Positions 36,958-52,802 of a stretch of 64,000 bases of DNA are shown one piece after another; the first letter of the stretch is position 1, and every line of letters begins with the position of its first letter. Origin of the DNA: Paenibacillus sacheonensis. GTDB lineage: Bacteria; Bacillota; Bacilli; Paenibacillales; Paenibacillaceae. The translations under genes and the position numbers were made by a program. The DNA is taken from the NCBI RefSeq assembly GCF_009909195.1, contig NZ_JAAAMU010000005.1, positions 1 to 64,000 of the forward strand, in the 5' to 3' direction. The notes below the pieces were generated by a model that was not told where the DNA came from, searched no databases, and worked only from the letters and a program-made list of their open reading frames with translations.

Positions 36958-37980
36958 TCAAGCTGCGAGCGATAGCAGAAACAGCTCCAAGCCCAGCGTC
37001 TTGTCGATGCGGCCGGTCTTCATGCCGTAATCAAGATCCGCCAGTTTGCTCAGATGACGGCCCAGCGTTTGGGCCGTGAAGCGCTTCGCCTTCTCGGCCG
37101 CCAGCTTGACCGCGTAAGGATGCAGACCGATTTGTCCGGCCATCTGCTGCTGGGAGTAGTTGTGCTGCTCCAGCTCCTTCACCTGCAGCATGATCCGGAA
37201 CTGCCTGGCGATGAGCGCGGCGATCTTGATCGGCTCTTCCCGGCGCAGCAGCAGCTCGGCATACAACTTGAGCGCCTTCTCCACGTTAAGCGAAGCCATG
37301 GCATCGATCAGCGCGAAGACGTCTTCCTCCACCGTCGAGGCGATCAGCGTCTCGACATCCTCGCTCGTGATCCTCCCGCCGCTGCCGGCGTGCAGACACA
37401 GCTTATCCACTTCATGCGCAAGCTGCTGCATGTTCGTTCCCGTACGGACCAGCAGGAGCTGCGCTGCCTCTCGCCCCATGGACCGTCCCTGCTCTTCCGC
37501 CCGCTTCACGGTCCACTGCAGCAAATCCTGCTCCTGCAGTTCCTGGAACGCAATCAGCGCATCCTGCTCCTTCAGCAGCTTGACGACCTTGCGCCGCTCG
37601 TCGAGCTTCTCCGCCATGACTTGAAAGACGACCACGCTGCTCTCGCAGGGCTGTTTCACGTAGGCGATGAGCGTATCCGTGCTGTGCTGAAGCTTGCTCT
37701 CCTTGCCCGCTGCGGCCGCAAGCACGGATGCATCCCGAACGAGCACCAGCTTGCGCGAGGCAAAGAACGGCATCGTGTCGGCTTCCGCCACCGCTTCCTC
37801 GATCGGCGTCTCCGACGTATCGTACTTCACGATGCCGAGCTCCCGCTCGCCCTCCGGGAGGAGCTTGTCCGTCAGGGCTTCGACGAACTGCCTCATGCGA
37901 TAACGGTCTTTGCCATATAACACATAAACGGGCCTGAACTGCCCGGCTTTCCATTCCTTCGCGGCATCTTTCAGTTCCAC
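36958..37980 (-). CDS. holA: DNA polymerase III subunit delta (HolA)
   Basis: Clamp-loader subunit that opens the beta sliding clamp; 340 residues. Features are PVYVLYGKDRYRMRQFVEAL near the N-terminus, MPFFASRKLVLVRDAS, and a C-terminal helical collar with ARQFRIMLQVKEL and a GLELFLLSLA end. The start is GTG 37980, with GGGGGAA seven bases ahead, after which the protein reads like relatives; the frame is open much further upstream. It lies between comE and rpsT in the expected order, although several accessory genes separate it from comEC. Confidence 0.93.
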   Translation of the reverse strand: MELKDAAKEWKAGQFRPVYVLYGKDRYRMRQFVEALTDKLLPEGERELGIVKYDTSETPIEEAVAEADTMPFFASRKLVLVRDASVLAAAAGKESKLQHSTDTLIAYVKQPCESSVVVFQVMAEKLDERRKVVKLLKEQDALIAFQELQEQDLLQWTVKRAEEQGRSMGREAAQLLLVRTGTNMQQLAHEVDKLCLHAGSGGRITSEDVETLIASTVEEDVFALIDAMASLNVEKALKLYAELLLRREEPIKIAALIARQFRIMLQVKELEQHNYSQQQMAGQIGLHPYAVKLAAEKAKRFTAQTLGRHLSKLADLDYGMKTGRIDKTLGLELFLLSLAA

Positions 37981-38230
37981 CCGCTCTTCCCCCTTACGCG
38001 CATTGTCTCTAAACGATAGCGCCATTCCGCTCAAAACGCAACAAAGGGATGCGGCGTCCCGCGCCGTATCCCTTCGTCCCCGAACATCTATATAAACATT
38101 CGCGAGCGATCGGCCCATGGTACCGGCTGCGAATGGTCATACGACGTCAAGGCTTTCTTGATCGTCCCATGACTTTCTTCTTCCCTACACCATACGCGAA
38201 TATCCCGTCTTGTGTGCATGGGCAAAAGCA

Positions 38231-39385
38231 TTATTTGCTAGATTGTACTTGCTCCGTTCCCGCTGCCGGGTCCACGACGTACGTGATCTTGGAGCCATCG
38301 GCCTGCGCTGCCGTGTAGGTAAGCAGCTTCGAGTCGTCGGACCATTTCAGATCGGCGATTCCCGATCGCTTCTTGCCTTCGAATACCGCCACGCTGTCGC
38401 TGACCGTGTAGACCAAGACCTTGTCTTCCACGATAAACGCCTGAAATTGTTCATCCGGTGATATCGGCGAAGCCATGAGCGTGGGAACAGGCGATTCGGC
38501 TTGCTTCAACGTATTTCCGCTGCCCGCACCCGAATTGCCCGATTGTCCGGCCGCCTTGTCGGCGCCGTCGGTCGTGCCGCCGCCCTTTGCATTGCCGCCT
38601 GCCGCAGGCGCTTGATCGCTCGCGCCGTCCTGCGCGGCTGCATCTCCGGCGTCGCCGGAATCGGCCGTATCGTACGATTGGTTCGGGGAGTTCGAATTTT
38701 CATCTGTCGTTATGCGGTCGTGCTCCCCTCCCGTAATCGGCGGCATCGGTTCGCCGTTCGGGTCGACGTTCAGCTCCTTGCTCATCTCTACGCTGTTGTT
38801 CTGAGCGGCGTCGTTCTTCGTGCCTTGCGATCGTACAAAGCTGCTGTCTTTCTTGTTCTCGCCCGAATTGCTTGCCGGGCTCGTGTCCGAAGCGTTGTCC
38901 GACATGTCGGCGGCGGAATTGCTGCTGCCCGTTGCGGCAGTATCCGCGTCGGCTGCCATATTGCCGCTATCCCGAAGCGTATGCATGCCCTGTCCGTTTA
39001 AGAAGAACATGCCCAGAATAACGCCGGCAGCCACGACGCCGCCCGCTGCCGAGATCGGAAGCCAGCGCCGCCAGTTTCCAGCCGGTTTCGCCCGCCGCGG
39101 AGCAGCTTTTTCTTCTCCGGCGATTACGATATGCGGCTGCGGAATAGTCAGCTCGGAAGCGGTCTGCAGCTCCGCCAGTTTAGGAAGGATCGCATCTACC
39201 AAGCTGTAACCCGGGGTTACTTTAGGCAAGCTTTCGAGCCCTGCAGAGAGCAGCTTCAGCCGTTCGAACATCGCTGCGCAATCGGAGCAATGCCGCGTAT
39301 GATTCATCAAGATTGCGGTTTCCTGTTCATCCAGGTCGCCGTCAAGCTGTCTTTGCATATACTCCATCACCTCTTGACAATTCAT
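38231..39385 (-). CDS. Anti-sigma factor with zinc-finger domain, membrane-anchored
   Basis: 384 residues. The N-terminal zinc-binding anti-sigma motif has MNCQEVMEYM and HTRHCSDC (His 29, Cys 33, Cys 36). One membrane segment follows near residues 108-130 (PISAAGGVVAAGVILGMFF). The outer part has about 170 residues rich in Ser, Asn, Asp, Gly and Ala, then a short beta-rich end (IADLKWSDDSKLLTYTAAQ, ITYVVDP) like one WD40/TolB strand set. The start overlaps the sigma-factor stop (ATGA), the usual arrangement of a sigma/anti-sigma pair. The signal sensed is unknown. Confidence 0.85.
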   Translation of the reverse strand: MNCQEVMEYMQRQLDGDLDEQETAILMNHTRHCSDCAAMFERLKLLSAGLESLPKVTPGYSLVDAILPKLAELQTASELTIPQPHIVIAGEEKAAPRRAKPAGNWRRWLPISAAGGVVAAGVILGMFFLNGQGMHTLRDSGNMAADADTAATGSSNSAADMSDNASDTSPASNSGENKKDSSFVRSQGTKNDAAQNNSVEMSKELNVDPNGEPMPPITGGEHDRITTDENSNSPNQSYDTADSGDAGDAAAQDGASDQAPAAGGNAKGGGTTDGADKAAGQSGNSGAGSGNTLKQAESPVPTLMASPISPDEQFQAFIVEDKVLVYTVSDSVAVFEGKKRSGIADLKWSDDSKLLTYTAAQADGSKITYVVDPAAGTEQVQSSK

Positions 39386-39930
39386 CCTCGGACACCTCCT
39401 CTCTGATAGTCATGCAGGTATGTCTGCAATTGCTGCCTTGCCCGGAATAAGTATGATTTTACGGTATTGAGCGGCAAATCCAGCGAATCTGCAATTTCAT
39501 TGTACGAGAAGTCCTGCAGGTATCGCAGTACCACGACTGCCCGATGATGCTCGGGAAGCTTGTCAATCGCTTTGCGAATATCCTGCGAGGTATAGGCAGA
39601 CATGACGTCTTCCTCGACCGAATGCTGATCCTTGAACACCATGTCGTGCTCGTCGATCGAGACGGTCGGCTTATTCCGCCGGAACTTGTCTATACAAATA
39701 TTCGTTACGATCCGCTGCACCCACGTCTTGAATTGCGCTTTCTCCTCGTAAGTACCGATCTTGGTATAGATACGGATTAGTGCTTCCTGCGCGGCATCCA
39801 TCGCGTCCTGCTCATTATTGACAATATAAAACGCGGTACGGTATACATGATTCTCGATTTGGCGCAACAGAGTAATAAGAGCTTCGCCATCGCCGGCTTG
39901 TGCGGCTTTAATCAGGCCTGGCTCCACCAC
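39382..39930 (-). CDS. ECF-type RNA polymerase sigma factor
   Basis: 182 residues. Sigma region 2 has MDAAQEALIRIYTKI and FKTWVQRIVTNICIDKFRR. Region 4 has LPEHHRAVVVLRYLQDFSYNEIADSLDLP with the recognition helix NTVKSYLFRARQQL. The frame is open for 52 more codons upstream, but GAGGGGGG stands seven bases ahead of GTG 39930 and the family similarity begins there. It is held inactive by the overlapping downstream anti-sigma factor. An ECF-type promoter just upstream suggests self-activation. Confidence 0.9.
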   Translation of the reverse strand: MVEPGLIKAAQAGDGEALITLLRQIENHVYRTAFYIVNNEQDAMDAAQEALIRIYTKIGTYEEKAQFKTWVQRIVTNICIDKFRRNKPTVSIDEHDMVFKDQHSVEEDVMSAYTSQDIRKAIDKLPEHHRAVVVLRYLQDFSYNEIADSLDLPLNTVKSYLFRARQQLQTYLHDYQRGGVRG

Positions 39931-39958
39931 GGAGGATCCCCCCTCTTGCAATCTAACA

Positions 39959-39985
39959 GACGCATGCGTTCCGTCGAAAGTTGCA
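39959..39985 (-). promoter_or_regulatory. Putative ECF-type promoter of the sigma/anti-sigma operon
   Basis: On the minus strand TGCAAC (39985-39980), a 17-base spacer and CGTC (39962-39959), about 30 bases upstream of the GTG start. It resembles the AAC...CGT pattern of SigW-group promoters. Autoregulation is inferred. Confidence 0.45.
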
Positions 39986-40067
39986 TCGCATATAAAAATT
40001 TTTTTATAAAAATTTAAGAAGTTGACGGCCCCTGAAAATTCGCGCATCACATCAAAAGAATAGCAGA

Positions 40068-40120
40068 AAATAAAAGGACCGTACACCCTGCCAGGAATTT
40101 ACCAGCAGCGTTACGGTCCT
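40068..40120 (-). terminator. Terminator after the 2-hydroxyacid dehydrogenase
   Basis: On the minus strand AGGACCGTA pairs with TACGGTCCT, with an inner GCTG/CAGG pairing, followed by TTTATTTTC. Confidence 0.7.
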
Positions 40121-40139
40121 CGTTCGGCGTTAAGCGGCG

Positions 40140-41099
40140 TTAATATTGGGCATTCAAGTCGACGACATTGCGTTTCGGCGATCCGCAGCTGCGATATTCG
40201 GCCAGGTTATCGAGCACGATGTCGAGTGCCCGCTCGATGTAGCTGTCCGTATTGCCCGCTTCGTGAGGCGTCAGAATCACGTTCTCCAGCGTCCACAGCG
40301 GGTGGTCCTCCGGCAGCGGCTCCTGCTCGAACACATCCAAGCCTGCGCCCGCGATGCGCCCGTCCCGAAGCGCGCTCAGCAGCGCGGCTGTATCCGTCGT
40401 GGCTCCCCTGCCGATATTAATATAGTAAGCCGTCGGCTTCATCGCTTCGAACTCGGCTTGGCCGAACAGGAAGCGGGTCTCGCTTGTCAGCGGCAGGCAG
40501 TTGATGACATAATCGCTTTGCGCCAAGACTTCGTTCAGCTTCGCGAGATCGGCCATCTCATCCACGCCCTCGGCGGGCGCCCCCGAGCGCCGTACGCCGA
40601 TCACTCTCATGCCGAATGCTTTGGCGATCTTGGCCGTTTCCAACCCGATCGCGCCTGCGCCGACGATCGCGATAGTCTTGCCATGGGCTTCGCCGAGACT
40701 TTTCGACGGCTGCCATTTACGCTCCAGTTGGCTGCGCACCGCACGATGAACGCCGCGGGTAAGGGATAGCAGCATGGCGAAAATCGATTCCGAAATTTGA
40801 AACGGATGCACGCCGGACGCATTGGTCAGCACGGCGCCCAGTGCCTGGATTCGGTCCAGCGGGATATGATCCACGCCGGCGCCCAGGTTTTGCAGCCATT
40901 TGAGGGCAATGCCCTCTTCGAACAGCGTTTTCTTGACGTCGCGGTTCCAGCCCAAAATAATTTCGGCGGACTTCAGCTGCTTCCGTGCCGTCTCGGCATC
41001 GAGTCCCGAAGCATCGACGAAACCGAAGTCAGGAAGCGCGGCTTGAATCGCCGAGATTTGATCGGGCGAAAATGATTGAACGGAGACAATCGTACCCAT
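40140..41099 (-). CDS. D-2-hydroxyacid dehydrogenase family protein
   Basis: NAD(P)-dependent oxidoreductase of 319 residues. The N-terminal substrate domain is followed by the nucleotide fold with IAIVGAGAIGLETAK. The catalytic set is NIGRGATTD (Arg), GLDVFEQEPLP (Glu) and LTPHEAGNT (His). GGAGGG lies about nine bases ahead of ATG 41099; the longer frame to 41147 lacks family character. Substrate (glyoxylate/hydroxypyruvate, phosphoglycerate-like or other) cannot be told. It is monocistronic with a terminator. Confidence 0.88.
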   Translation of the reverse strand: MGTIVSVQSFSPDQISAIQAALPDFGFVDASGLDAETARKQLKSAEIILGWNRDVKKTLFEEGIALKWLQNLGAGVDHIPLDRIQALGAVLTNASGVHPFQISESIFAMLLSLTRGVHRAVRSQLERKWQPSKSLGEAHGKTIAIVGAGAIGLETAKIAKAFGMRVIGVRRSGAPAEGVDEMADLAKLNEVLAQSDYVINCLPLTSETRFLFGQAEFEAMKPTAYYINIGRGATTDTAALLSALRDGRIAGAGLDVFEQEPLPEDHPLWTLENVILTPHEAGNTDSYIERALDIVLDNLAEYRSCGSPKRNVVDLNAQY

Positions 41100-41254
41100 A
41101 AGCTGCGGTCCCTCCTTCCTAATTGGAACAAAGATTAACATTTGCAACCATTTGTGTCAAACCAATCGAATGCGGTTACTTAATTATCGAGGTCAATTAC
41201 TGTTGAAATTTGCCATGAACGAAGCAAGCTCTAACTGGCGGGAGGGGTCTTACG

Positions 41255-41587
41255 ATGACACTCACGAAAGAACAATGGAAACAACAATGGGTCGACGATT
41301 ATTTGGACTTGTACAATTACGCGCTGGCGCTCGGAGATAAGGAATGGCAGACGGAAATCGAGGCGCTGCTGCGCCGGCAGGAGTACGCCTACGACGACAC
41401 GGTCCGCGAATGGACGAAGGAGCAGCTGTGGACGCAGTTCAACACAATCAACTATAAAATGATGGAGCTGTTCACGCTGATGCGGAAAAGCAGCAGCAAC
41501 GAGGAGGAGTCGGCGATCCGGGATCTGATCTGGCAGCTCAAGCTGCAGCGCATGGATCTGGCCAAACAAATCAAGGAGCTGTGCTGA
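41255..41587 (+). CDS. Hypothetical protein, helical, 110 residues
   Basis: No family recognised. The protein is soluble and probably all-helical, rich in Trp, Gln, Glu and Leu (EQWKQQWVDDYLDLYNYA; LIWQLKLQRMDLAKQIKE at the C-terminus). GGGAGGGG lies ahead of the ATG, and codon use is like the neighbours, so it is probably real. Upstream is the divergent dehydrogenase gene, downstream a large hairpin element. Confidence 0.72.
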   Translation: MTLTKEQWKQQWVDDYLDLYNYALALGDKEWQTEIEALLRRQEYAYDDTVREWTKEQLWTQFNTINYKMMELFTLMRKSSSNEEESAIRDLIWQLKLQRMDLAKQIKELC

Positions 41588-41617
41588 CGTTTCGAGCTAC
41601 AAAGGTGCCGCCGCTGC

Positions 41618-41688
41618 AGGGCCGTCAGATTCGATGAGCGCTCCCGTGGTGTTCCGCACCACAGTCGCTCTCATTCGAACTGACGGCG
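41618..41688. repeat. Long nested inverted repeat
   Basis: GCCGTCAG.TTCGA.TGAG.GCG-type arms pair around an inner GTGGTG/CACCAC hairpin: the left arm starts with GCCGTCAGATTCGATGAGCG and the right arm ends with CATTCGAACTGACGGC. It fills most of the gap between the 110-residue gene and the cupredoxin gene. No gene seen. Confidence 0.65.
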
Positions 41689-41741
41689 CTTGCGCTCCGT
41701 ACCCCCTCCGCTGCAAAAGCAGCACAGCTTCCGGCGGCATT

Positions 41742-41788
41742 GCAAAAGCCCTTTTTCATCTGAGCAGCAGATGAAAAAGGGCTTTTGC
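41742..41788. terminator. Perfect 21-bp stem-loop, bidirectional terminator
   Basis: The arms 41742-41762 and 41768-41788 are exact reverse complements over a five-base loop (AGCAG) and contain CCCTTTTT/AAAAAGGG. It lies 18 bases after the cupredoxin stop and would end transcripts from either side. Confidence 0.6.
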
Positions 41789-41805
41789 GGTCTCCTATGC
41801 GGTAA

Positions 41806-42234
41806 TTAGTCGACGATCAATTTGCCGACCATGTTCGCGTGTCCCGAGCCGCAGACGATGGAGCAGTGATACGGATGCTCGCCCGCTTTGTCCGCGGTGA
41901 AGGTAGCCGTGCCTTCGTTCTCCTTGATGTCGACATCGTAGTCCGGGATCGCGAAGCCATGGAGCCCCTCTTCGTCCACCAGCTTGATCGTTACCTTGTC
42001 TCCTTGTTTCACATGGATCTCGGGTTGATCGAATTTGAAGTTGGACGCCTTGACCGTTATCGTCTGCTCTCCGCCGGAGCTGGCTCCGGTATTGGCATTG
42101 CCGCCGTTATTGGTGCCGGTATTCGTATTGCCCCCGTTGTTATCGTTGTTTTTCCCGCCGCAGCCGCTTAGCGCGAGCGCGGCCGCGAAGAGCAGTACCG
42201 CCGTCAGAAGGCCGGTTCGAATCCGCTTGTTCAT
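41806..42234 (-). CDS. CuA-type cupredoxin lipoprotein
   Basis: 142 residues. A lipoprotein signal (LALSGC, lipidated Cys 25) is followed by an Asn/Gly/Thr spacer, then a cupredoxin fold. GLHGF gives His 92, and HCSIVCGSGHANM gives Cys 124, Cys 128, His 132 and Met 135, the complete CuA motif (C-x3-C-x3-H-x2-M) of cytochrome oxidase subunit II. No membrane helices of COX2 are present, so it is a free binuclear-copper electron carrier on the outer face. ATG 42234 has AAGGAG eight bases ahead; GTG 42243 is a weaker choice. Four genes (dehydrogenase subunit, flavoprotein, tatC, tatA) lie directly upstream on the same strand. Confidence 0.88.
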   Translation of the reverse strand: MNKRIRTGLLTAVLLFAAALALSGCGGKNNDNNGGNTNTGTNNGGNANTGASSGGEQTITVKASNFKFDQPEIHVKQGDKVTIKLVDEEGLHGFAIPDYDVDIKENEGTATFTADKAGEHPYHCSIVCGSGHANMVGKLIVD

Positions 42235-42246
42235 CCTCAACACTCC

Positions 42247-42447
42247 TTATTTTGCTTGCTCCAATTCTTGCACGGGCTGCTTCTCTTCGGTCGCATCGTC
42301 GATTATGATGCCCTTCGTGGAGTTGCGGAATTCACGAAGCGTATCTCCGAACGCGCGGCCGAGCTGCGGCAGCTTGGCTGGACCGAATACGATGAGCGCG
42401 ATGGCCAAGATGATGATCAGGCCGGAAACGCCTACATTGTTAAACAT
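42247..42447 (-). CDS. tatA: Sec-independent translocase subunit TatA
   Basis: 66 residues. One N-terminal membrane helix (GLIIILAIALIVFG) is followed by the FGPAKLPQLGRAFGDTLREFR hinge and amphipathic helix that define TatA. AAAGGAGG lies seven bases ahead of the ATG. It lies between tatC and the cupredoxin gene. Confidence 0.95.
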   Translation of the reverse strand: MFNNVGVSGLIIILAIALIVFGPAKLPQLGRAFGDTLREFRNSTKGIIIDDATEEKQPVQELEQAK

Positions 42448-42486
42448 GGCTTTTACCTCCTTTCCGGGTTCCTAATGCCTTGTCGA

Positions 42487-43254
42487 TCAAGGCAGCACCG
42501 GTTCGAGCGCCCGCTTCTCTCTTCGTCTGAAATACCGGATACTGACGAAGGCGCTGATCTCGAACAGCAGAATAAGCGGCAGCGTCACCGAAAGATGGGA
42601 CACGAAGTCGGGCGGCGAGATGAGCGAGCCCAGCACCGCCAGTCCGACATAGGCGTACTTGCGCACCTGCTTTAGCTTGCCCGGCGTCAACAAACCGATC
42701 CGGGTCAGCAGCAGCAGGACGAGCGGCATTTCGAAAGCGATGCCCATGGGAAGCAGGAAGCTGACCAGAAACGAGACATAATGCTGGATGCCGTATACCT
42801 CGTTCGCGCCGATGGATCGATTCAGCTTGATCATGAACGAAATCATCATCGGCAGCGCGACGCTGTATCCGAACAACACCCCGAACAAGAACAGCAGAAA
42901 CGACAACGGAACGTACAGCAGCGTGCTCTTGGCTTCCGTGTCCGTCATGCCCGGTCTTGCAAACGCCCACAGCTGATAGATAAACACGGGCAGCGAGAGC
43001 AGCAAGCCGACCATCAAGGCGCATTTCATATAAACGGCGATCCCGTCGGAAAGCGCGAATACGCTCCACTCCACCTGCACGGATCCGAGATGCGTCTTGA
43101 CGAAATGCAGCAAGCGGGGAGAGACGTACAGGCCGGCGGCAAGCGACAGCACAAACCAGATCGACGAGATGATCAGCCGCTTGCGCAGCTCCGTCAGATG
43201 CGCAATCAGGTCGCGGTCGACCGACAGCTTGCCGGCGTTCTCCCCGCCGCTCAT
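42487..43254 (-). CDS. tatC: Sec-independent translocase subunit TatC
   Basis: 255 residues with six membrane segments. The N-terminal HLTELRKRLI and later FALSDGIAVYMK and ALPMMISFMIKLNRS correspond to TatC, which binds the twin-arginine signal. PDFVSHLSVTLPLILLFE ends the membrane region. It overlaps the flavoprotein stop by four bases (ATGA), so it is translationally coupled to the dehydrogenase. Confidence 0.95.
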   Translation of the reverse strand: MSGGENAGKLSVDRDLIAHLTELRKRLIISSIWFVLSLAAGLYVSPRLLHFVKTHLGSVQVEWSVFALSDGIAVYMKCALMVGLLLSLPVFIYQLWAFARPGMTDTEAKSTLLYVPLSFLLFLFGVLFGYSVALPMMISFMIKLNRSIGANEVYGIQHYVSFLVSFLLPMGIAFEMPLVLLLLTRIGLLTPGKLKQVRKYAYVGLAVLGSLISPPDFVSHLSVTLPLILLFEISAFVSIRYFRRREKRALEPVLP

Positions 43255-44972
43255 ACGAGCGATCCCGGCTTAGCGAGATATTTGGCGATGCCTTCCGCGG
43301 TGCGGTAAGCCAATGCGCCGACGGTCGCGGTCGGATTGAAGCCGCTGTTATGCGCGAAGGCCGACGCGCCGCAGACGAAGACGTTCTCCGCGTCCCACAT
43401 CTGCAAATAGTTATTCACGACCGACGTCTTGGGATCGCTGCCCATGATCGCTCCGCCCGTATTGTGGGTGGATTGGTACGGCACGATATTGTACTGCTTG
43501 ATGGAATCGTGGATTTCCGTCTTGGTGCCGCCCATGCCGTCGGCGATTTCTTTGGTCTTCCCGGCAATGTACTTGACCAGCTCGCGGTCCTGGTCTTCGA
43601 AATCAAAGGTGAGCCGGATCAGCGGCAGTCCCAGCGCATCCTTATACTCGGGATCGAGGTCCAGGTAGTGATGCCGCCACGGCATGCTGGATCCCTGAGC
43701 GGCCACGGTCAGCGTGCGGTTCGCGTAGTGCAGCGTTTGCTTCTTGAATTCCGCGCCCCACTTCGGCGTCCCCATCGGAGCAGGCTGGTATTGAATCGGC
43801 CGAAGCCCCGTCTGCGTGAAACGGATGTTCGCGCCATGGAGGAACTTCAGATCACTGTGGTCGAAATTATCGCCGTTAAAGTCGTCCAGGCTGCTTCCGA
43901 GCGCTCCCGCGCCCATCGCCATATTGAACTCCCGGTCCTCGAACACGACATTCGTGCTGGCGCCGTTGACTTGGTAGGCGTAATTGCGCCCCACGGCCCC
44001 GGTATCGGTATTCGGGTCATACGGTTTGCCCAGCTTGGAGAGCAGCAGCAGTCTTACGTTGGAGAATAGATAGCCCGATAGAATGACGATGTCGGCCGGC
44101 TGAATGTACTCTTCGCCCGTAGGCGTATTCACGTAACGCACGCCCGTCGCCTTCTTGCCGTCGTGAAGCACTTCCGTTACGTTCGCATGCGTTCTCAGAT
44201 CCAGCTTGCCCGACTTCTGGGCGACGGGCAGGACCGTCACGACGGGGTCCGCCTTCGCGCCGTACTCGCAGCCGAACCGCTCGCAGTACCCGCAATATTG
44301 GCATGGCGCCCGCTCGATGCCGTCCGGGTTCTTGTACACCTCGGTCAAATTCGCCGACGGAATGACATACGGATGGTAGCCGAGCTTCTTCGCGGAATCC
44401 TCGAACAGCTTCATCGCCGGCGTCTTCTTCATCGGACCGACCGGGAACGCCTTGGACATCGCCCCGACGTTCGCCTGCGTCGTCGGTTCGCCGCCGATGC
44501 CCGCCATTTGCTCGTATTTGACGAAGTATGGTTCCAGCTCGTCGTACTTGATGCCCCAGTCGCGAATGGCCATGCCTTCCGGGATTTTCTTGGCCCCGTA
44601 ACGCTCGATCGTCTTGCTGCGAATCTCGAAATCATACGGGAGGAATCGGTAGTACTGGCCGTTCCAGTGTACGCCCGCGCCGCCAAGCCCGTCCCCAAGA
44701 AGAAACGAGCCGTAGCTGCGCATCGGCAGCGCGCGCAGTTTGCTCGTGTTGCGGAAGGTGACGGTTTCCTTCGACAAGTCCTGCATGAGTTCGTAACGGG
44801 AGGCGTAGCGCAGCTCGTCGTGAACGTGGAAATAATCCTGCGTGCTTCGGCTCTTGCCCCGCTCCAGGCCGACGACGGAATGGCCGGCCTTGGTCAATTC
44901 CGATGCGATGATTCCTCCTACCCAGCCCATGCCGACAATGACGATGGGCACTTTGGGAAGTTTCGTTGCCAT
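43251..44972 (-). CDS. GMC-family flavoprotein, gluconate/sugar dehydrogenase large subunit
   Basis: 573-residue FAD enzyme. VIVGMGWVGGIIASELTKAG near residue 11 is the FAD-binding motif. CQYCGYCERFGC carries Cys 224, 227, 230 and 235, as in the catalytic subunit of three-subunit gluconate 2-dehydrogenase and FAD-glucose dehydrogenase, which holds a 3Fe-4S cluster. The C-terminal THNTGG (His 503) and HNSGFNPT (His 541, Asn 542) give the GMC active-site pair. It has no signal peptide and would be exported with its Tat-signal partner, encoded 21 bases upstream. Substrate is inferred from the family. Confidence 0.88.
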   Translation of the reverse strand: MATKLPKVPIVIVGMGWVGGIIASELTKAGHSVVGLERGKSRSTQDYFHVHDELRYASRYELMQDLSKETVTFRNTSKLRALPMRSYGSFLLGDGLGGAGVHWNGQYYRFLPYDFEIRSKTIERYGAKKIPEGMAIRDWGIKYDELEPYFVKYEQMAGIGGEPTTQANVGAMSKAFPVGPMKKTPAMKLFEDSAKKLGYHPYVIPSANLTEVYKNPDGIERAPCQYCGYCERFGCEYGAKADPVVTVLPVAQKSGKLDLRTHANVTEVLHDGKKATGVRYVNTPTGEEYIQPADIVILSGYLFSNVRLLLLSKLGKPYDPNTDTGAVGRNYAYQVNGASTNVVFEDREFNMAMGAGALGSSLDDFNGDNFDHSDLKFLHGANIRFTQTGLRPIQYQPAPMGTPKWGAEFKKQTLHYANRTLTVAAQGSSMPWRHHYLDLDPEYKDALGLPLIRLTFDFEDQDRELVKYIAGKTKEIADGMGGTKTEIHDSIKQYNIVPYQSTHNTGGAIMGSDPKTSVVNNYLQMWDAENVFVCGASAFAHNSGFNPTATVGALAYRTAEGIAKYLAKPGSLV

Positions 44973-44993
44973 AGTCTGTTCGCTCCTTTGCCC

Positions 44994-45776
44994 TTAGCCG
45001 ATTTCCAAGTGATCGCTTAAGCTTAACGGTTCCATTTTCACGAAATCGTCCTTGTCGATTTGTTCGGTGAAGCTCATTTGGTTGCCGGGATAATTGCGCA
45101 TCCGCCAGCCGTCCATGTTCTTGTTGCCGCCGTACAGCGGATCCGCGTAAACGCCTTCGATCGTGAGGTTCAAGAAGTACGCGAAGAACGTCGAAGCCGG
45201 CACGCCCTTGATGTTAACGGCATCCTGCTCGAAATCGCCGAGCACTTTGTCCTGCTCTTCCGGAGCGAGATCCGGGAAGCCTTTCTGGTACTTATCCATG
45301 CTGTATACGTTCAGCGAGTCCAAACCCAAGGCGACCAGCTCGCGGCGTTTGAAGGAAAGCTGATAGCCCTGCGTCGCTTCAGACTTGTAGAACGGCGGGC
45401 TCATGTACTCGCGCGCGTTCATGCCGTAAGCGCTCGCCATTTGGTGGTCGATGAAGAAAGCGACCCCTAGCTCTTTGGCCCCAGGGCCGCTATCGTCCTT
45501 CGGATAAATCCGCTCGGATGCCGCTTCTGCCGTCATGAACTGGTCCTGATTGAAGAACATGAGGGCCTGATTGTAATCCCGGTCGGCCGGCTTGGCCGGT
45601 TTGCCGGTATCGGGCTGAGCTGCTTCATCCTTCTTGTCCGTGTTCGCGTTGGCCCCGATGAGACCGCCGATAACGCCGCCGACGACGACGCCTCCGATCG
45701 CGGTTCCGGAGTATTTCAAGAATTGCCTGCGCGACTCGTCGCGGGGCTGCTGCGAAGATTCGTTCTTGTTCGCCAT
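44994..45776 (-). CDS. Gluconate 2-dehydrogenase subunit 3 family protein, Tat substrate
   Basis: 260 residues. The twin-arginine signal SRRQFLK at residues 15-21 is followed by a Gly/Val-rich hydrophobic core. The mature part includes FFNQDQFMTAEAASERIYP and GVAFFIDHQMASAYG, typical of the small (gamma) subunit. By family knowledge it carries the folded flavoprotein through the Tat pore. It is the first gene of a five-gene unit with the flavoprotein, tatC, tatA and the cupredoxin. GAGAGG lies ahead of the ATG. Confidence 0.87.
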   Translation of the reverse strand: MANKNESSQQPRDESRRQFLKYSGTAIGGVVVGGVIGGLIGANANTDKKDEAAQPDTGKPAKPADRDYNQALMFFNQDQFMTAEAASERIYPKDDSGPGAKELGVAFFIDHQMASAYGMNAREYMSPPFYKSEATQGYQLSFKRRELVALGLDSLNVYSMDKYQKGFPDLAPEEQDKVLGDFEQDAVNIKGVPASTFFAYFLNLTIEGVYADPLYGGNKNMDGWRMRNYPGNQMSFTEQIDKDDFVKMEPLSLSDHLEIG

Positions 45777-45903
45777 GCTTTATTCGCCTCTCTCTGTGGA
45801 AGTTGGAGGAATTCGCTTCGCTTAGTCTTTCCAACATAAGGGGCATTATCCAAGGCCGCAAAAGAATTATTCCAAAGGTGGAGAAACCTATGCGGCAGCG
45901 GTG

Positions 45904-46037
45904 TTTGGGGGTGAAAGACTTTGGGCGTGAAAGACTTTGGGCGTGAAGAAGTTTTGGCGGTGAAAGAGCTTTGGGCGTGAAGGAGCTTTGGGGGTCAAGG
46001 AGCTTCAGGGGCCAAGGAATTTCGAGGGTAAACGCGT
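45904..46037. repeat. Degenerate minisatellite, eight units of 16-17 bp
   Basis: Consensus TTTGGGCGTGAAAGAGC, units starting at 45904, 45920, 45936, 45953, 45970, 45987, 46004 and 46021. The first six are close, the last two decayed. Unit length changes from 16 to 17 within the array and the + frame contains stops, so it is not coding. It lies in the 370-base gap (45777-46146) between the dehydrogenase operon and comEC; nothing else is seen there. Confidence 0.85.
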
Positions 46038-46146
46038 TTTGGAAGAAAGCTGCGGTTGAGAGAAGGGCGGGATCGAGGCGGTGGCGAGAAGGCCGCTTCC
46101 GCCCCCTCCGGATTAAGCGGGTTGAAGCGGCCTCCTGTTCACTCAG

Positions 46147-46836
46147 CTAGCGGTAAGGGATTGCATGCCTTTGACTGATCGCGCCGTTGGGTGTGATTCT
46201 GAATTGCACCTCCCCGTTCATATCCGTCCTCGCGGCGGGAATCTCCGCTTGCCTCAGCCGTTCCATGACGGTGGGATGAGGATGACCGTAAATATTGTTG
46301 CGGCCTACCGAGATGACCGCTTGGGCCGGCTGCCAGTAAGAGAGCCATGCGTCCGTCGTCGAGGATTTGCTTCCATGATGCGAGATTTTCATAACGTCCA
46401 CCGGATGATTGAGAAGAAGGAGAGGCCTCGGCGTCACCCGAGACTGCTCGGTTGCCAAGGACAATTCTGATCCCGACGGCTGACCCGAAGCCGTCACGGA
46501 GCCGCCCTCCTCGGCCTGCTGCAGCTCCCTCGCCTGCTCCCCGGTCTCCGTCCCTGCATGCAGTTGTTCCAATAGACTTTGCTCCTCGGCGGCATCGGCA
46601 TCGCCGGTAAACAGAAACTGCCGGCCATATACCGTAACCAGCAGGGCGACACTCTCCCCGTTCTGCTCTTCGGCCACCGGAACGGCATCGTCGACGGCCA
46701 GGTCACGGCTTGCGGCTGTGTTGGAGTCGGCCTTAGCCGGTTCGATAGGCGGCTTAACTTCAGCCGTTCTAATCCGTGGAAGTTGAAGCAGGCTTGGCGG
46801 CGTCCCGATTACTGCCATGGACGTACCGGCGTCCAT
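46147..46836 (-). pseudogene. comEC: comEC, 3' part (C-terminal nuclease region, out of frame)
   Basis: 229 codons in the frame next to the main comEC frame. Without the break, the protein would read into AEGGQSWRMDAGTSMAV, the normal ComEC sequence, just before this part. It carries FLFTGDADAAEE and VMKISHHGSKSSTTDAW, the second half of the metallo-beta-lactamase metal site, and ends DMNGEVQFRI. An Ala/Glu/Gln-rich insertion of about 45 residues lies between these motifs. ATG 46836 has no good Shine-Dalgarno, so separate translation is doubtful. Confidence 0.75.
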
Positions 46837-48995
46837 CCGCCAGCTCTGCCCGCCCTCTGCGCGGTAGGAATGTCATCCTTGACGGCAGCTCGAAGCAGCG
46901 AAACGGCATCGTCGGAGTCTTTCACCGTGCCGTTCCAGAGGATCGCTCGGACGGGTATCGACTCGACGACCGCGAGCAAGCCCTTGATATGATCGCTGTC
47001 CAGATGAGACAGGACGAGCAGATCGATATGATGTACGCCGCGCTGCTGCAGCAGCGGCACGACGAGCTTCCTTCCGACCTCGTAAGGGTCCTTGCGCTTG
47101 CGCCACCCTTCCTGGCTTCCGAAGGTGACTGCCCCTCCTCCGTCGATGAGAATATGCTTGGCGCCCGACGTCCGGATCAAGATGGAGTCGCCTTGGCCGA
47201 CATCCAAGAAATCGACATAGGCGCTCCTGTCGAAGGCATCCGGCATATAAGCGCCGCCAAGTAAGCCTGCTAAAGTCAGCAAGCCGCACGCAGCGAGAAT
47301 GCGCCTTCTTCTCAAGGCGGCTGGCGAAGCGGACGGAAGCTCGATGAAAGGCGCCGACCATGCCGACTCTCCCGTCTCGGCGACCTCGAAGTCATGCGAC
47401 GTGCCGTCCTGCGGCGTAGCGGCCGCAGCCTGCAATCGGTTCAGCGCATGGAACACGTTGCCTAGAGCGGCATAGAAAGCCACAACCCACCATAACGGCG
47501 GCGTCGCCCATGTCAGCCGGAAGCGGCTCAAGCTGCTAAGCTTCATCACGAATCCGAAGGTTAGATCATTGCCTATGGCCGCGATATGAGCCGTCAACAT
47601 GCCGGCCGGATGCCATAAGCCTTCGAACGCCAGCGACGCGCCGCCAAGCGGCATGACGATGAAGCTGATGAACGGCACGAGCACCAGATTCGCCGCGATC
47701 GACAAGAGATGCAGCTGATTGAAATAATAGATCGTGAGCGGAAGCGAAACCGCCTGGGCGACCAGAGTGACGGAAAGCAGATCGAACAGCGAGGCGCTCC
47801 ACCATTTCCGACCGCGGGGCAGCAGTCCGCGGATCGGCTTCGTGCCGAGTATGAGACCTGCCGTGACGATAAACGACAGCTGAAAACCGACGTTGCCCAG
47901 CATGTACGGGTCCCATAGGAGCATGAACAGCGCCGCCGCGGCCAGCAGATGCAGGCCGTCCTTCAGCTTGTGCAGGCGCGCCGTGGCCAAGCCGAGCATC
48001 GCCATGAGGCCGGAGCGGACCACCGACGGCGATGCCCCGGCGAGGAGCACGTACATCGGCACCGCCGCGATCATGAAGAGCAGCATGCGCTCGCGGGTCA
48101 TGCGCAGCAGCTGCAGCAGGCCGCCGAGCACATAGAGGAATACGGCGACATGCAGGCCCGAGATGGCCAGAATATGCGTAAGTCCCAATTGCGAAAACTG
48201 GCGGAACATGTCAGGATCGAGATCGTCGCTTATGCCGAGGACGAGGCCTTTCATGTAACCGGCCTGGACGCCGGGATACAGCGCGTCCATTCGTTTGCCG
48301 AGCGATGCGCGTACGGCGTCCATGTGCTGGAGCAGCGAGGCGCCGCTCCAGCTGGAGCCTGCGTACGCTCGGACAGCGGATGCTCCGTCAGCGGCGAGCA
48401 GCCAGTGGATGCGCTGGCCATGCAGATAGGCGCGGTAATCGAAGCCGCCGAAATTCGTCCCCGCGGACGGCAGCGACAGCATGCCGGTCACGGCCGCCCT
48501 CTGACCGCGCTTCCATGCGGCCGCGTCCTTCAGCTCTTCTTCCTTCCCCAGCTTCACCTGCACGAGCAGCCGCTCGCCGTCCAGCTTCACCGGCGCTGTC
48601 GGCGAGCCCTGCCCATGCAGCGCAATGGTGCTGCCAGCCAAGCGAAACTGCACCCGGTCGCCGTCGATTTCGGGCGGAGAGACGATGGTCCCTGCCAGCT
48701 CCGCTTCGTATTCGGCCGCAGCCGAAGGCCACGCCGCCACCGACGCCGCGTACTCGGCCGGCAGCGCCGTCACGTTCCGGCCATCCGCCCACATCCGCTG
48801 CCCGGCAGCCAAACCGAACGCCGTCAAACAAGCGGCGGCGAGCGCCCAGGAGCCGCGACGCAGCAGAACCGCAGCCGCCAGCGCGGCTAGCAGTGCCGCG
48901 CCGGTCAGCACAGTGCCCAGCGGCGTCAGGTAAGCCGCAGTCCCGCTCCCGAGTACCCAACAAACCGTAAACCAAACGAGCGGTCTCCCCGTCAT
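46809..48995 (-). CDS. comEC: ComEC DNA-uptake channel, frameshifted near C-terminus
   Basis: Membrane channel for single-stranded DNA in competence. This frame gives 728 residues: an N-terminal soluble OB-like region, the Competence domain with many membrane segments (GLVLGISDDLDPDMFRQFSQ, HILAISGLHVAVF), then the start of a metallo-beta-lactamase domain (FLDVGQGDSILI, LSHLDSDHIKG). At about 46855-46872 the frame leaves the family sequence and stops at 46809, while the rest continues in the next frame. One missing base near CCTACCGCG would restore it. No slippery heptamer is present. Either a natural mutation or a sequencing error. GGGGGAGG lies ahead of the ATG. Confidence 0.85.
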   Translation of the reverse strand: MTGRPLVWFTVCWVLGSGTAAYLTPLGTVLTGAALLAALAAAVLLRRGSWALAAACLTAFGLAAGQRMWADGRNVTALPAEYAASVAAWPSAAAEYEAELAGTIVSPPEIDGDRVQFRLAGSTIALHGQGSPTAPVKLDGERLLVQVKLGKEEELKDAAAWKRGQRAAVTGMLSLPSAGTNFGGFDYRAYLHGQRIHWLLAADGASAVRAYAGSSWSGASLLQHMDAVRASLGKRMDALYPGVQAGYMKGLVLGISDDLDPDMFRQFSQLGLTHILAISGLHVAVFLYVLGGLLQLLRMTRERMLLFMIAAVPMYVLLAGASPSVVRSGLMAMLGLATARLHKLKDGLHLLAAAALFMLLWDPYMLGNVGFQLSFIVTAGLILGTKPIRGLLPRGRKWWSASLFDLLSVTLVAQAVSLPLTIYYFNQLHLLSIAANLVLVPFISFIVMPLGGASLAFEGLWHPAGMLTAHIAAIGNDLTFGFVMKLSSLSRFRLTWATPPLWWVVAFYAALGNVFHALNRLQAAAATPQDGTSHDFEVAETGESAWSAPFIELPSASPAALRRRRILAACGLLTLAGLLGGAYMPDAFDRSAYVDFLDVGQGDSILIRTSGAKHILIDGGGAVTFGSQEGWRKRKDPYEVGRKLVVPLLQQRGVHHIDLLVLSHLDSDHIKGLLAVVESIPVRAILWNGTVKDSDDAVSLLRAAVKDDIPTAQRAGRAGGWTPVRPWQ

Positions 48996-49036
48996 CCTAA
49001 CCGCCTCCCCCTTTCCAGCTTATCTTTTGCAAATAC

Positions 49037-49062
49037 GAAAAAACCTCCGGGAGCACCGGAGG
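49037..49062 (-). terminator. Rho-independent terminator after comEB
   Basis: On the minus strand CCTCCGG and CCGGAGG pair over five bases, followed by six T. It stands between comEB and comEC, so comEC may need read-through or its own promoter. Confidence 0.85.
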
Positions 49063-49140
49063 AGCAAGCTCGGCCAATAACGGCCGAACAGGACTTCCAT
49101 GATGCTGCCAGAGGTTCTTCCTCTTCATATGCGATTTCCT

Positions 49141-49671
49141 TTAGCTCGTGATGTCCATGCCCGCTTGAGGGGGCGGCTCGTAGGCGTGCAGGTGCCGGAA
49201 CACGATGCCTTTGACCTGCATGAGCGCTGCGACCTTCTCGCTGTCCTTCACGTATGCGCGATGGTAGACGACTTCCTTGACCCCGCTGTTGGCAAGCATG
49301 TTGGCGCATGTCCAGCAGGGTTGGTCCGTCACGTATACCGTGGATCCCTCGCGGTCGACCCGGTCCGTGAACAACAGCAAGTTCTGCTCCGCATGGATCG
49401 TCCGGATGCAGCGCTGCTTCTTGATCATGCGCTCCACGCCGTTCTCCGTTTGCATCTCGAATTCCTCCACGATCATGCAGCCGTCCTCGGAGCAGTCCGC
49501 GACGCCCATCGGAGCGCCGTTATAGGCGGTTCCGAGCAGCTTCTTGCCCTGCACGAGCACCGTGCCCACATGCCTGCGCGGACAACGCGAACGGGTCGAA
49601 ACCATATACGCGATATCCATGAAATACGTGTCCCAATCTTTTCTCGAGCTGTCTTGTACTCCCGATGCCAT
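49141..49671 (-). CDS. comEB: ComE operon protein 2 / dCMP deaminase
   Basis: Zinc deaminase that converts dCMP to dUMP; encoded in the comE locus but not needed for DNA uptake in Bacillus. 176 residues. The catalytic zinc site has His 93 and Glu 95 (TIHAEQN) and PCWTC (Cys 119, 122). CPRRHVGTVLV and YNGAP are typical of the family. The first residues up to about 12 are poorly conserved. It begins 34 bases after the metY stop. Confidence 0.93.
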   Translation of the reverse strand: MASGVQDSSRKDWDTYFMDIAYMVSTRSRCPRRHVGTVLVQGKKLLGTAYNGAPMGVADCSEDGCMIVEEFEMQTENGVERMIKKQRCIRTIHAEQNLLLFTDRVDREGSTVYVTDQPCWTCANMLANSGVKEVVYHRAYVKDSEKVAALMQVKGIVFRHLHAYEPPPQAGMDITS

Positions 49672-49705
49672 GTCTGACTTGACTTCCTTCCTTGCGGCCT
49701 GACGA

Positions 49706-51043
<1,338 letters not shown>

Positions 51044-51066
51044 CTATCTTTTCCATTGTCGCATAA

Positions 51067-51714
51067 TCAAGTGCCGAGAACAATGAGAGACTTCAGCTTT
51101 TCCACTAGTTTCGGCCCGATGCCCTTGACGCGCTGCAGGTCGTCCGCGCTTCGGAATGCCCCATTGCGCTCGCGATCCGCCACGATGGCGTTTGCCTTTG
51201 CGGCACCGATACCGGGCAGGGCGTCCAGCTCCGCTGCCGAAGCGTGATTGACGTCGATTTTGCCGGCACTCGATGCGTCCGGCTCGATCGCGGCACCTGA
51301 TTCGCCCGCCGTCTGTTCCAAATCGTGGATTGGCACATCAGGCGCAGCAGCATGCTCCGTTCGCCCGGATTCCGAAACCGCGCCAGCACCAGCTGAGCTC
51401 GTTACCTTCCCTTCATTCTTCTTCCCGTCCTCTTTCTTCTCTTCATCCTTCTTCTCGTCCTTCTTCTCGTCCTTCTTCTCGTCCTTCTTCTTCTCTTCAT
51501 TCGACTCATCATTCTTTTTCCCGCCCGCCTCTTGCTCCTCCATCGGTGCCAAGGCGCGGATTACCTGCGGATTCATCGCCGTCCAGTCCGGCTGCTCGCT
51601 CGATCCTTGCGGCAGCAGCGCCATCACGATCAAGATGGCGGACACCGCCATGCACAAGCCGGCGCCAACCCAATACCCTTTCCGCCTGACTCGTAACCCC
51701 GTTCGCTTGAGCAC
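51067..51714 (-). CDS. comEA: ComEA DNA-binding competence protein, short form
   Basis: Membrane-anchored receptor for double-stranded DNA in transformation; 215 residues. One membrane segment (about 13-35) is followed by a Lys/Glu/Asp linker with four KKDE repeats. The C-terminal helix-hairpin-helix domain comes last, with IDVNHASAAELDALPGIGAAKANAI and LQRVKGIGPKLVEKLKSL. I see no SLBB-like domain, which Bacillus ComEA has between anchor and HhH part. GTG start with AAAGGAG ahead. It is divergent from comER. Confidence 0.9.
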   Translation of the reverse strand: MLKRTGLRVRRKGYWVGAGLCMAVSAILIVMALLPQGSSEQPDWTAMNPQVIRALAPMEEQEAGGKKNDESNEEKKKDEKKDEKKDEKKDEEKKEDGKKNEGKVTSSAGAGAVSESGRTEHAAAPDVPIHDLEQTAGESGAAIEPDASSAGKIDVNHASAAELDALPGIGAAKANAIVADRERNGAFRSADDLQRVKGIGPKLVEKLKSLIVLGT

Positions 51715-51962
51715 GATCCATCGCTCCTTTCATCGCTTGCGATACGATTTCCATAAAAATGGTCATGATGGCCTTGCCGGTATGCATATCGTACTAAGAG
51801 CATCATGGTTCCGGTGAACGCTTGCGTACAGCCGCAGCCTCATATGCTCAGCCTTACGCTTGGCTGACGCTTGCAGAGCGAGGCCTGCGTGAAGCAACGA
51901 TTCAGAATACAAATGCTGTTGAAGCTGCGCTGCTACAAAAAAGGCGCATGGGAGGGATTGCA

Positions 51963-52802
51963 ATGAATGTCGGGTTTATCGGAATTGGGAGCATGGGCAG
52001 CCTGCTAGTAGATGCTTTCATCGGATCGGGAGCACTCAAGCCATCGCAAATTACGGTCAGCAATCGAACGTTCGCGAAAGCCATTTGCTTAGCCGACCGC
52101 CATCCCGGCCTTAAGGCTGTCTCTTCGAACCGAGAAGCGGTTATCGATCAGGATATCGTCTTCCTCTGCATCAAGCCGGTGGAGTTCAAATCGGTGCTGG
52201 ACGCCATCCGCGATCATCTGCTGCCGAATCAACTCGTCATCTCGATTACGAGCCCCGTCCTGCTGGAGCAGCTGGAAGATGCGCTTCCCTGCAAGATCGC
52301 CAAGGTGATTCCCAGCATCACCAACTTCATGTGCAGCGGAGTTTCGCTGTGCATGTACGGCAGCCGCATGACCGATGCCGATATCGTCAAGCTGAACGGC
52401 CTGCTCGCCTATATAAGCGAACCGCTTCAAATCGACGAAGCGCATACGCGCATCGTCTCGGATCTATCCAGCGTCGGTCCTGCCATCATGGCCTGCCTGC
52501 TGCAGCGCTTTATCGACGCCGCCGCCGAGGAGACCGGCCTCCCCCGCGAGCAGGCCCGCCTCATCGCCAGCGAGATGCTGCTCGGAACGGGGCAGCTGCT
52601 GACAACCGGCGGCATGTCTCCGGAAGAGCTGCAAGCCCGCGTCGTCGTTCCCGGCGGCATTACCGCACAGGCGTTGGCGCTGCTGAACCGCGAGCTGGAC
52701 AACGTGTTCAACCGGGTCATCATGGCCACGCATGCCAAATACCGCGAGGACCTGGAGAAGGTCGCCGACATTTTATACGGCAAAGAGGTGAACGGCCCTT
52801 AA
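51963..52802 (+). CDS. comER: ComER, late competence protein (pyrroline-5-carboxylate reductase-like)
   Basis: 279 residues of the ProC-like fold: MNVGFIGIGSMGSLLVDAF (NADP motif), VFLCIKPVEF, the middle PSITNFMCSGVSL and a C-terminal helical domain with GTGQLLTTGGMSPEELQARVV and PGGITAQAL. GGGAGGG lies ahead of ATG 51963; the longer frame has no family character. The real role of ComER is unclear. The gene is on the opposite strand to comEA, as in Bacillus. Confidence 0.92.
   Translation: MNVGFIGIGSMGSLLVDAFIGSGALKPSQITVSNRTFAKAICLADRHPGLKAVSSNREAVIDQDIVFLCIKPVEFKSVLDAIRDHLLPNQLVISITSPVLLEQLEDALPCKIAKVIPSITNFMCSGVSLCMYGSRMTDADIVKLNGLLAYISEPLQIDEAHTRIVSDLSSVGPAIMACLLQRFIDAAAEETGLPREQARLIASEMLLGTGQLLTTGGMSPEELQARVVVPGGITAQALALLNRELDNVFNRVIMATHAKYREDLEKVADILYGKEVNGP

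Follow-up and report, generated by a model that had tools for sequence, protein, structure and literature searches.

Which protein receives the electrons of an exported flavin dehydrogenase whose locus encodes no cytochrome c subunit? This question is raised by a locus of Paenibacillus sacheonensis located on contig NZ_JAAAMU010000005.1, of which the first 64,000 nucleotides of the forward strand were analyzed (hereafter, the window). At positions 41806..45776 of the window, five consecutive open reading frames (ORFs) on the minus strand correspond to a dehydrogenase small subunit, a GMC-type flavoprotein, the twin-arginine translocation (Tat) genes tatC and tatA, and a lipoprotein with a CuA copper motif. 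A first-pass annotation, based on the nucleotide sequence, had described these five genes, and all of the ORFs were indeed found to be present, with matching Pfam domains. Its statement that no cytochrome c subunit is encoded here also held for the 15 kb surrounding the flavoprotein gene (37001-52000), where neither a pattern nor a profile search identified a lipoprotein with a CxxCH haem motif, the rest of the window being unscanned. We favour, at a probability of roughly 0.6, the reading that the block constitutes a self-contained export-and-respiration module, in which the CuA lipoprotein takes the electrons of the dehydrogenase and thereby replaces the haem c protein of related loci; co-transcription, metal loading, the partners and the direction of electron flow are predicted elements of this reading.

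Haem c and CuA carriers at related loci

A search for the GMC flavoprotein covered 147 family genomes, drawn from a larger group, and stretches of ~15 kb were fetched (survey 1). A match at E 1e-20 was obtained in 56 of these genomes, 40 of which (that of P. sacheonensis included) possess an ortholog with at least 64% identity, the next best match reaching 35% at most. In the 39 other stretches, the small subunit and the GMC flavoprotein were invariably found together, as were tatC and tatA in all but one, indicating that the gene order is not due to chance; CuA was present in seven. The single exception regarding the tat genes is locus L069, where TatC is encoded ~7.6 kb past the GMC gene, beyond the fetched stretch. 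Many loci that lack CuA were shown, by gene clustering and inspection of the sequences, to encode a lipoprotein with one CxxCH motif; for one such protein the best NCBIfam match is cytochrome c551 (E 5.1e-21, below cut-off). Among the 40 loci, 24 carry haem c, eight CuA and eight neither, while none carries both.

A second survey added 80 loci from named genomes, representing the best 80 of 578 confirmed relatives and leaning to close kin, from Paenibacillus, Cohnella, Brevibacillus, Aneurinibacillus, Neobacillus and other Bacillales. The resulting 120 loci (59 haem c, 19 CuA, 42 neither, none with both) include eight duplicates, without which 112 distinct Bacillales loci remain: 55 with a mono-haem cytochrome c lipoprotein, 16 with CuA, 41 with neither and none with both. 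A carrier was counted if encoded at most 6 kb away from the GMC gene, with a profile E value of at most 1e-5 and the metal motif present. Approximately ten stretches end at contig ends, where a carrier could be missed, and genes in the fetched loci were predicted with a home-made caller. As both carrier profiles were built from rows of the surveyed loci, the high scores of those rows arise by construction; a pattern scan for lipobox plus metal motif, applied before the removal of duplicates, recovered 58 of the 59 haem c loci and all 19 CuA loci, the haem c protein of L057 being found by profile and gene clustering only. The cupredoxin and the dehydrogenase thus do co-occur, at 16 of the 112 loci, and by the same count the idea that CuA always accompanies the enzyme was rejected.

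The fact that relatives carry a haem protein instead of CuA suggests that both perform the same job, i.e., taking electrons from the enzyme. If the two were distributed independently, 7.9 loci with both would be expected with kinship ignored, compared to the zero observed; the corresponding P value of 6e-6 likewise ignores kinship and does not represent a test. The haem c gene retains its linkage at varying positions, being located 5' of the small subunit gene (on either strand), on the far side of a convergent tatCA pair, or immediately following the GMC gene (L155 and L178). On a quick flavoprotein tree, of which 30 of the 109 inner branches are open, CuA occurs in three branches: the clade of the P. 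sacheonensis locus (12 loci), a pair formed by Brevibacillus migulae and Cohnella kolymensis (L117 and L138), and a pair formed by Paenibacillus sp. XY044 and a second copy of Paenibacillus cellulositrophicus (L141 and L143). The last-mentioned species possesses two dehydrogenase loci, of which L124 carries haem c and L143 CuA. At least two changes between haem c and CuA are required on this larger flavoprotein tree, and a tree of the CuA proteins implies four label changes, at least two of which are forced by starred branches, and is compatible with one or several origins of the linked CuA.

A further lipoprotein-like gene of ~225 residues (e.g., L063 9452-10174 and L158 4900-5583), mostly divergent from the small subunit gene, was observed in 50 of the 112 stretches, i.e., in 26 haem c and 24 carrier-less loci and in none of the 16 CuA loci. 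An initial assignment to the YhcN/YlaJ sporulation proteins was dropped, since neither Pfam, searched with two of the proteins, nor NCBIfam, searched with three, returned a match.

Organisation of the locus

Table 1. Features of the dehydrogenase-tat-CuA block, with positions in the window
Feature	Position	Strand	Details
Small subunit (hitchhiker, gamma-type)	44994..45776	-	260 aa; Tat signal SRRQFLK; Gluconate_2-dh3, PF13618 E 3.1e-30
GMC-type FAD dehydrogenase catalytic subunit	43251..44972	-	573 aa; PF05199 E 2.8e-18
tatC	42487..43254	-	PF00902 E 1.4e-56
tatA	42247..42447	-	PF02416 E 2.2e-18; PRK14861 above its cut-off
CuA lipoprotein	41806..42234 (likely ATG; listed GTG 42243)	-	PF13473; lipobox LSGC; Asn/Gly-rich tether; cupredoxin domain
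Hairpin, likely transcript end	41735..41800 (folded stretch)	-	21 bp, just past the CuA stop

The genes are closely spaced (Table 1), with 21 nt between the small subunit and GMC genes, an overlap, noted in the first-pass annotation and measuring 4 nt (ATGA), between the GMC stop codon and the tatC start, and 39 nt between tatC and tatA. The likelier ATG start of the CuA gene lies 12 nt past the tatA stop codon and is preceded, eight bases on its 5' side, by AAGGAG. The hairpin following the CuA gene exhibits a folding energy of -35.5 kcal/mol (z -7.0), and none of 200 shuffled sequences was equally stable, though a simple terminator scan did not list it. The scan also listed no terminator-like site between tatA and the CuA gene, where a transcript boundary would have spoken against a common system, and no sigma-70 promoter was listed either. 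Based on the gene spacing and the hairpin, it is likely that the five genes form one transcript, predicted to end in the hairpin after the CuA gene.

The dehydrogenase subunits

The small subunit contains ESRRQFLKYSG and a hydrophobic stretch, which agrees with the Tat signal claimed for it, and its gene is the only PF13618 gene in the genome. A profile built from 30 small subunits returned no significant relative among solved proteins (best E 0.19). At locus L054 of genome G011 (8365-9128) the small subunit matches as two pieces separated by a gap, and may there be interrupted, judging from the sequence. In 12 of the 112 loci (L064, L070, L074, L077-L081, L170, L177, L181 and L183), none of which is a CuA locus, the small subunit has a Tat signal whose end resembles a lipobox (e.g., SLIGC), suggesting that the enzyme itself might be exported by Tat as a lipoprotein.

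The nearest solved relative of the GMC flavoprotein is the large subunit of fructose dehydrogenase (FDH; E 1.1e-32, profile E 4.9e-33), followed by the Burkholderia glucose dehydrogenase (BcGDH; E 5.1e-20), and both matches span most of its length. His102 aligns with the HW motif of FDH and, by the offset of the match (query 95 = chain 98, the residues themselves not being displayed), lies near the flavin-linked His105 of BcGDH, while His503 and Asn546 align with the catalytic His and Asn of FDH. In agreement with the first-pass annotation, the protein contains a CxxCxxCxxxxC motif (C-QY-C-GY-C-ERFG-C) and, by eye, no signal peptide. This Cys motif, as well as the HWNG and THN motifs, is kept in all 112 loci. 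The four Cys residues fall in the region of the Cys cluster of the BcGDH/FDH type, with a different spacing and a gapped alignment, and it is possible, as far as can be judged from the alignment, that they hold an iron-sulphur cluster.

The enzyme is best read as an exported flavin/iron-sulphur dehydrogenase of a sugar-like alcohol, with cytochrome c as the presumed local acceptor in many of its relatives and CuA in that role in certain lineages; both its substrate and the path of its electrons are predictions. An attempt to read the substrate from neighbouring genes was rejected, as most neighbours outside the block are common only to close clades.

The CuA lipoprotein

The first-pass annotation had assigned the full CuA motif to this lipoprotein, and the five ligands were recovered, with the listed GTG start giving way to the ATG nine bases downstream. 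The protein possesses the lipobox LSGC (by eye) and the ligands H, C, C, H and M in the spacing Hx31Cx3Cx3Hx2M; these residues (H37, C69, C73, H77 and M80 in domain numbering) are invariant in 22 of 22 aligned domains. Its nearest solved relatives are the CuA domains of cytochrome oxidase subunit II (CoxII), followed by those of nitrous oxide reductase, and, as in rows of the latter (CSWFC), the gap of its CxxxC motif contains no Glu. A binuclear, mixed-valence copper centre is predicted for this domain.

When the 147 family genomes were searched with the CuA profile, nine places scored 178-187 bits, eight of which represent the dehydrogenase locus, and the next scored 122 bits; since the profile was built from those eight linked rows, only the score gap and the ninth place, in genome G077, are informative. 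In all 15 other distinct CuA loci the gene lies 9-66 nt past tatA, each time with a stretch resembling a ribosome-binding site (by eye). The P. sacheonensis genome contains two other matches to the CuA profile, on contigs C5 and C1. COX1 matches are strong on C23 and C34, weak and below cut-off on C18, and absent from C42, the contig of the window; no search was made for a nitrous oxide reductase gene. The notion that CuA is used because the cell has no c-type cytochromes was rejected, as the genome contains two matches to the haem c profile.

Beside the block, a D-2-hydroxyacid dehydrogenase gene (window 40140-41147) is present near CuA in seven of the first eight CuA loci, being absent from L051. 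Apart from the window, the loci in question are L043-L046, L048 and L049: the encoded proteins are close kin in two, whereas in four they are only ~41-46% alike and the gene is placed elsewhere in the stretch.

Proposed dedication of the Tat pair

The genome of P. sacheonensis contains three tatC genes; a search for a second tatAC pair, as proposed in the first-pass annotation, thus yielded two, each further tatC lying beside a tatA. The second copy is situated in a stretch which, as read from translations, encodes groES/groEL and molybdenum-cofactor genes. The third (G000 C13, L085 6057-10075) accompanies a Tat-signal flavin amine oxidase (PF01593), and may form another Tat set that is linked to its substrate.

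A tree was built from 77 TatC rows, of which 39 are linked copies from survey 1, 16 are hand-chosen linked copies from survey 2 and 22 are unlinked copies; the program warns of long branches. One clade of this tree (SH-aLRT 99) holds 53 of the 55 linked copies, those of L155 and L166 falling outside, compared to none of the 22 unlinked copies. All 40 genomes with a GMC ortholog encode at least two TatC copies; of the 107 genomes without an ortholog, 23 encode at least two (in G112 as weak matches only), 79 one and five none. Within survey 1, tatC and the GMC gene share their orientation in 20 stretches and are opposed in 18. Linked TatC was found at 68 of the 71 loci with a linked carrier as opposed to 20 of the 41 loci without. 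The sequence comparison therefore supports the proposal of a dedicated, substrate-linked Tat system, with the need of this pair for export of the enzyme standing as a prediction.

Candidate electron acceptors

In the proposed mechanism, the twin-arginine signal of the small subunit would carry the folded flavoprotein through the co-encoded TatA-TatC pore, by analogy with the hitchhiker mechanism put forward for BcGDH. Outside the membrane, the GMC subunit would oxidise a sugar-like alcohol, and electrons would pass from the flavin adenine dinucleotide (FAD) to an iron-sulphur cluster which the alignment places near the surface of the GMC subunit. The lipid-anchored CuA protein would subsequently take these electrons and deliver them, directly or via another carrier, to a haem-copper oxidase. 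In the majority of relatives that possess a linked carrier, the job of CuA would fall to a mono-haem cytochrome c lipoprotein, CuA taking the place of haem c in the lineage of the window and in two other branches. A more specific proposal is put forward tentatively, at slightly less than even odds: a flavin/iron-sulphur dehydrogenase would pass its electrons directly to CuA, outside the setting of a terminal oxidase or reductase, and at this locus CuA and a mono-haem cytochrome c would naturally stand in for one another, at least two changes being required on the tree.

Several observations weigh against the proposed module. Genome G077 (L093) retains CuA as an intact gene with unchanged synteny, i.e., the ComEC side, followed by orf41255, the 2-hydroxyacid dehydrogenase gene and an ECF sigma gene, but lacks the block from the small subunit to tatA as well as any dehydrogenase ortholog; an alpha/beta-hydrolase gene (L093 5040-6407) with AT-rich-looking surroundings takes the place of the block. 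Genome G114 (L096 5688-6890) keeps tatA and haem c alongside fragments of the small subunit and TatC, with no GMC match. Furthermore, the 147 genomes contain 29 top-scoring haem c places (at least 120 bits), of which 24 lie at the GMC locus and five lie away from it (in G056, G093, G114, G073 and a second place in G125). Taken together, these cases indicate that the carriers can persist once the enzyme is lost, whether as relics or because they serve another purpose. The independent tree pairs number only three or four, too few for significance, and in these the row without CuA is mostly carrier-less, haem c standing opposite in an average of 0.7 of three pairs; the first tree, of 40 loci, needed only one change between haem c and CuA. 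The mutual exclusion of haem c and CuA is therefore striking, but reflects few independent events.

The first-pass annotation had proposed that CuA replaces the cytochrome c subunit of known three-subunit dehydrogenases. The distribution of haem c and CuA speaks for such a replacement, which is nonetheless only partly supported in view of the predicted electron transfer, the carrier-less loci, the few independent events and the CuA gene of G077, and also because the cytochrome subunit of BcGDH has three haems and the lipoprotein of relatives a single one.

CuA might alternatively be a general electron carrier, or a copper donor for cytochrome oxidase, which travels in the operon as a passenger, the enzyme using some other acceptor. 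Between one and five CuA-profile matches occur in each of 138 of the 147 family genomes, mostly off this locus, which makes a general role of CuA possible and counts against a carrier specific to the dehydrogenase, and this explanation would also accommodate the persistence of CuA in G077, the two additional CuA matches of P. sacheonensis and its two strong COX1 matches elsewhere in the genome. However, the linked CuA proteins score ~55 bits above the next paralogues (with a profile built from linked rows), their genes consistently follow tatA at short distance, and none of the 112 loci combines CuA with a linked haem c, and on balance we regard a general role as unlikely.

Less probable still is a direct transfer of electrons from the dehydrogenase to menaquinone or to any cytochrome c, which would render the linked carriers a convenience and the exclusion of CuA and haem c inherited chance. 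The 41 loci of 112 without a linked carrier, which also weigh against the CuA module, are consistent with such a route, and they include all 12 Bacillaceae loci (Bacillus, Neobacillus, Heyndrickxia and Lentibacillus) and seven of the eight Brevibacillus loci; the small number of independent switches points in the same direction. Against this, the linkage of the carrier outlasts several rearrangements, two kinds of linked carrier occur in separate branches, and 17 of the 41 carrier-less loci also lack linked tatC and tatA, suggesting a different, dispersed organisation. That the CuA-like protein is a copper chaperone for another exported protein rather than an electron carrier, for which PmoD, described in passages of PMC6189053 as a free-standing protein of the CuA type whose ligand set is non-canonical, would offer a precedent, is very improbable given that the full five-ligand set, unlike that of PmoD, is invariant in the aligned domains and that none of the other four genes is predicted to encode a copper enzyme.

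Relation to known systems

Known CuA domains feed a terminal oxidase or reductase. The protein described here shares with the CuA domains of CoxII and nitrous oxide reductase the cupredoxin domain and the same five ligands, yet differs from them in being a stand-alone lipoprotein encoded beside a dehydrogenase. Its His-Cys spacing is Hx31, compared to the Hx34 quoted in a passage of PMC6189053.

According to the consulted parts of PMC6719666, electrons in BcGDH pass from FAD to a 3Fe-4S cluster at the surface (Cys212, 218 and 222) and on to a multi-haem cytochrome c subunit, which an excerpt of PMC5979317 describes as having three haems, while the small (gamma) subunit is a proposed hitchhiker for Tat export (PMC6719666). 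The enzyme described here resembles BcGDH and the fructose and gluconate dehydrogenases in possessing a GMC subunit with an apparent flavin-linked His and a presumed Cys cluster beside the flavin, and BcGDH in its Tat-signal small subunit, a putative hitchhiker, and its presumed external electron acceptor (PMC6719666, in part). In contrast to BcGDH, FDH and gluconate dehydrogenase (GADH), no multi-haem cytochrome subunit was found in the 15 kb around the flavoprotein gene of the window; the candidate acceptor is the CuA lipoprotein here and a c551-kind lipoprotein with one CxxCH in many relatives. The Cys spacing also differs, being CxxCxxCxxxxC as opposed to CCx4Cx3C in the BcGDH/FDH group, and the system, unlike that of BcGDH, has its own tatAC pair and Gram-positive kin. 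The linked haem c protein is similar to the c550/c551 lipoproteins of Bacilli (CccB type; PMC3475470, in the portion consulted), but is encoded at a dehydrogenase locus.

Bacillus subtilis possesses the Tat pairs TatAd-TatCd and TatAy-TatCy. To our knowledge, no electron carrier belongs to its phoD and ywbN Tat sets. As at the phoD and ywbN (efeB) loci, according to passages of PMC3827258, the Tat pair described here lies beside its own substrate and is one of several sets, though the B. subtilis substrates are a phosphodiesterase and a peroxidase rather than a dehydrogenase. The genes that the same source, in its available parts, gives as conserved near tatC in Bacilli include those for gluconate 2-dehydrogenase subunit 3 and its flavoprotein, which means that the link between tat genes and the dehydrogenase was already known; those parts tie no CuA or cytochrome carrier to the dehydrogenase, and the word 'cupredoxin' has no occurrences in them. 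A literature search covering titles, the starts of abstracts and passages (including PMC13068155), with few subscription journals represented, returned neither a CuA lipoprotein serving such a dehydrogenase nor an exchange of haem c and CuA. The carrier swap would be the new part of this work, the tat-dehydrogenase link having been published previously.

Implications

The known role of CuA sites is chiefly to let electrons enter cytochrome oxidase and nitrous oxide reductase. If the proposed module is correct, a stand-alone CuA protein serving a dehydrogenase would represent a new partner for CuA, and haem iron and binuclear copper would be exchanged for one another inside a single respiratory module. 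The loci would then provide a natural experiment, in which one enzyme family operates with either haem c or CuA, making the requirements placed on the carrier directly testable. For electrodes and sensors, where enzymes of the BcGDH kind are currently studied, a compact enzyme of Gram-positive origin that brings its own export machinery may also be of interest.

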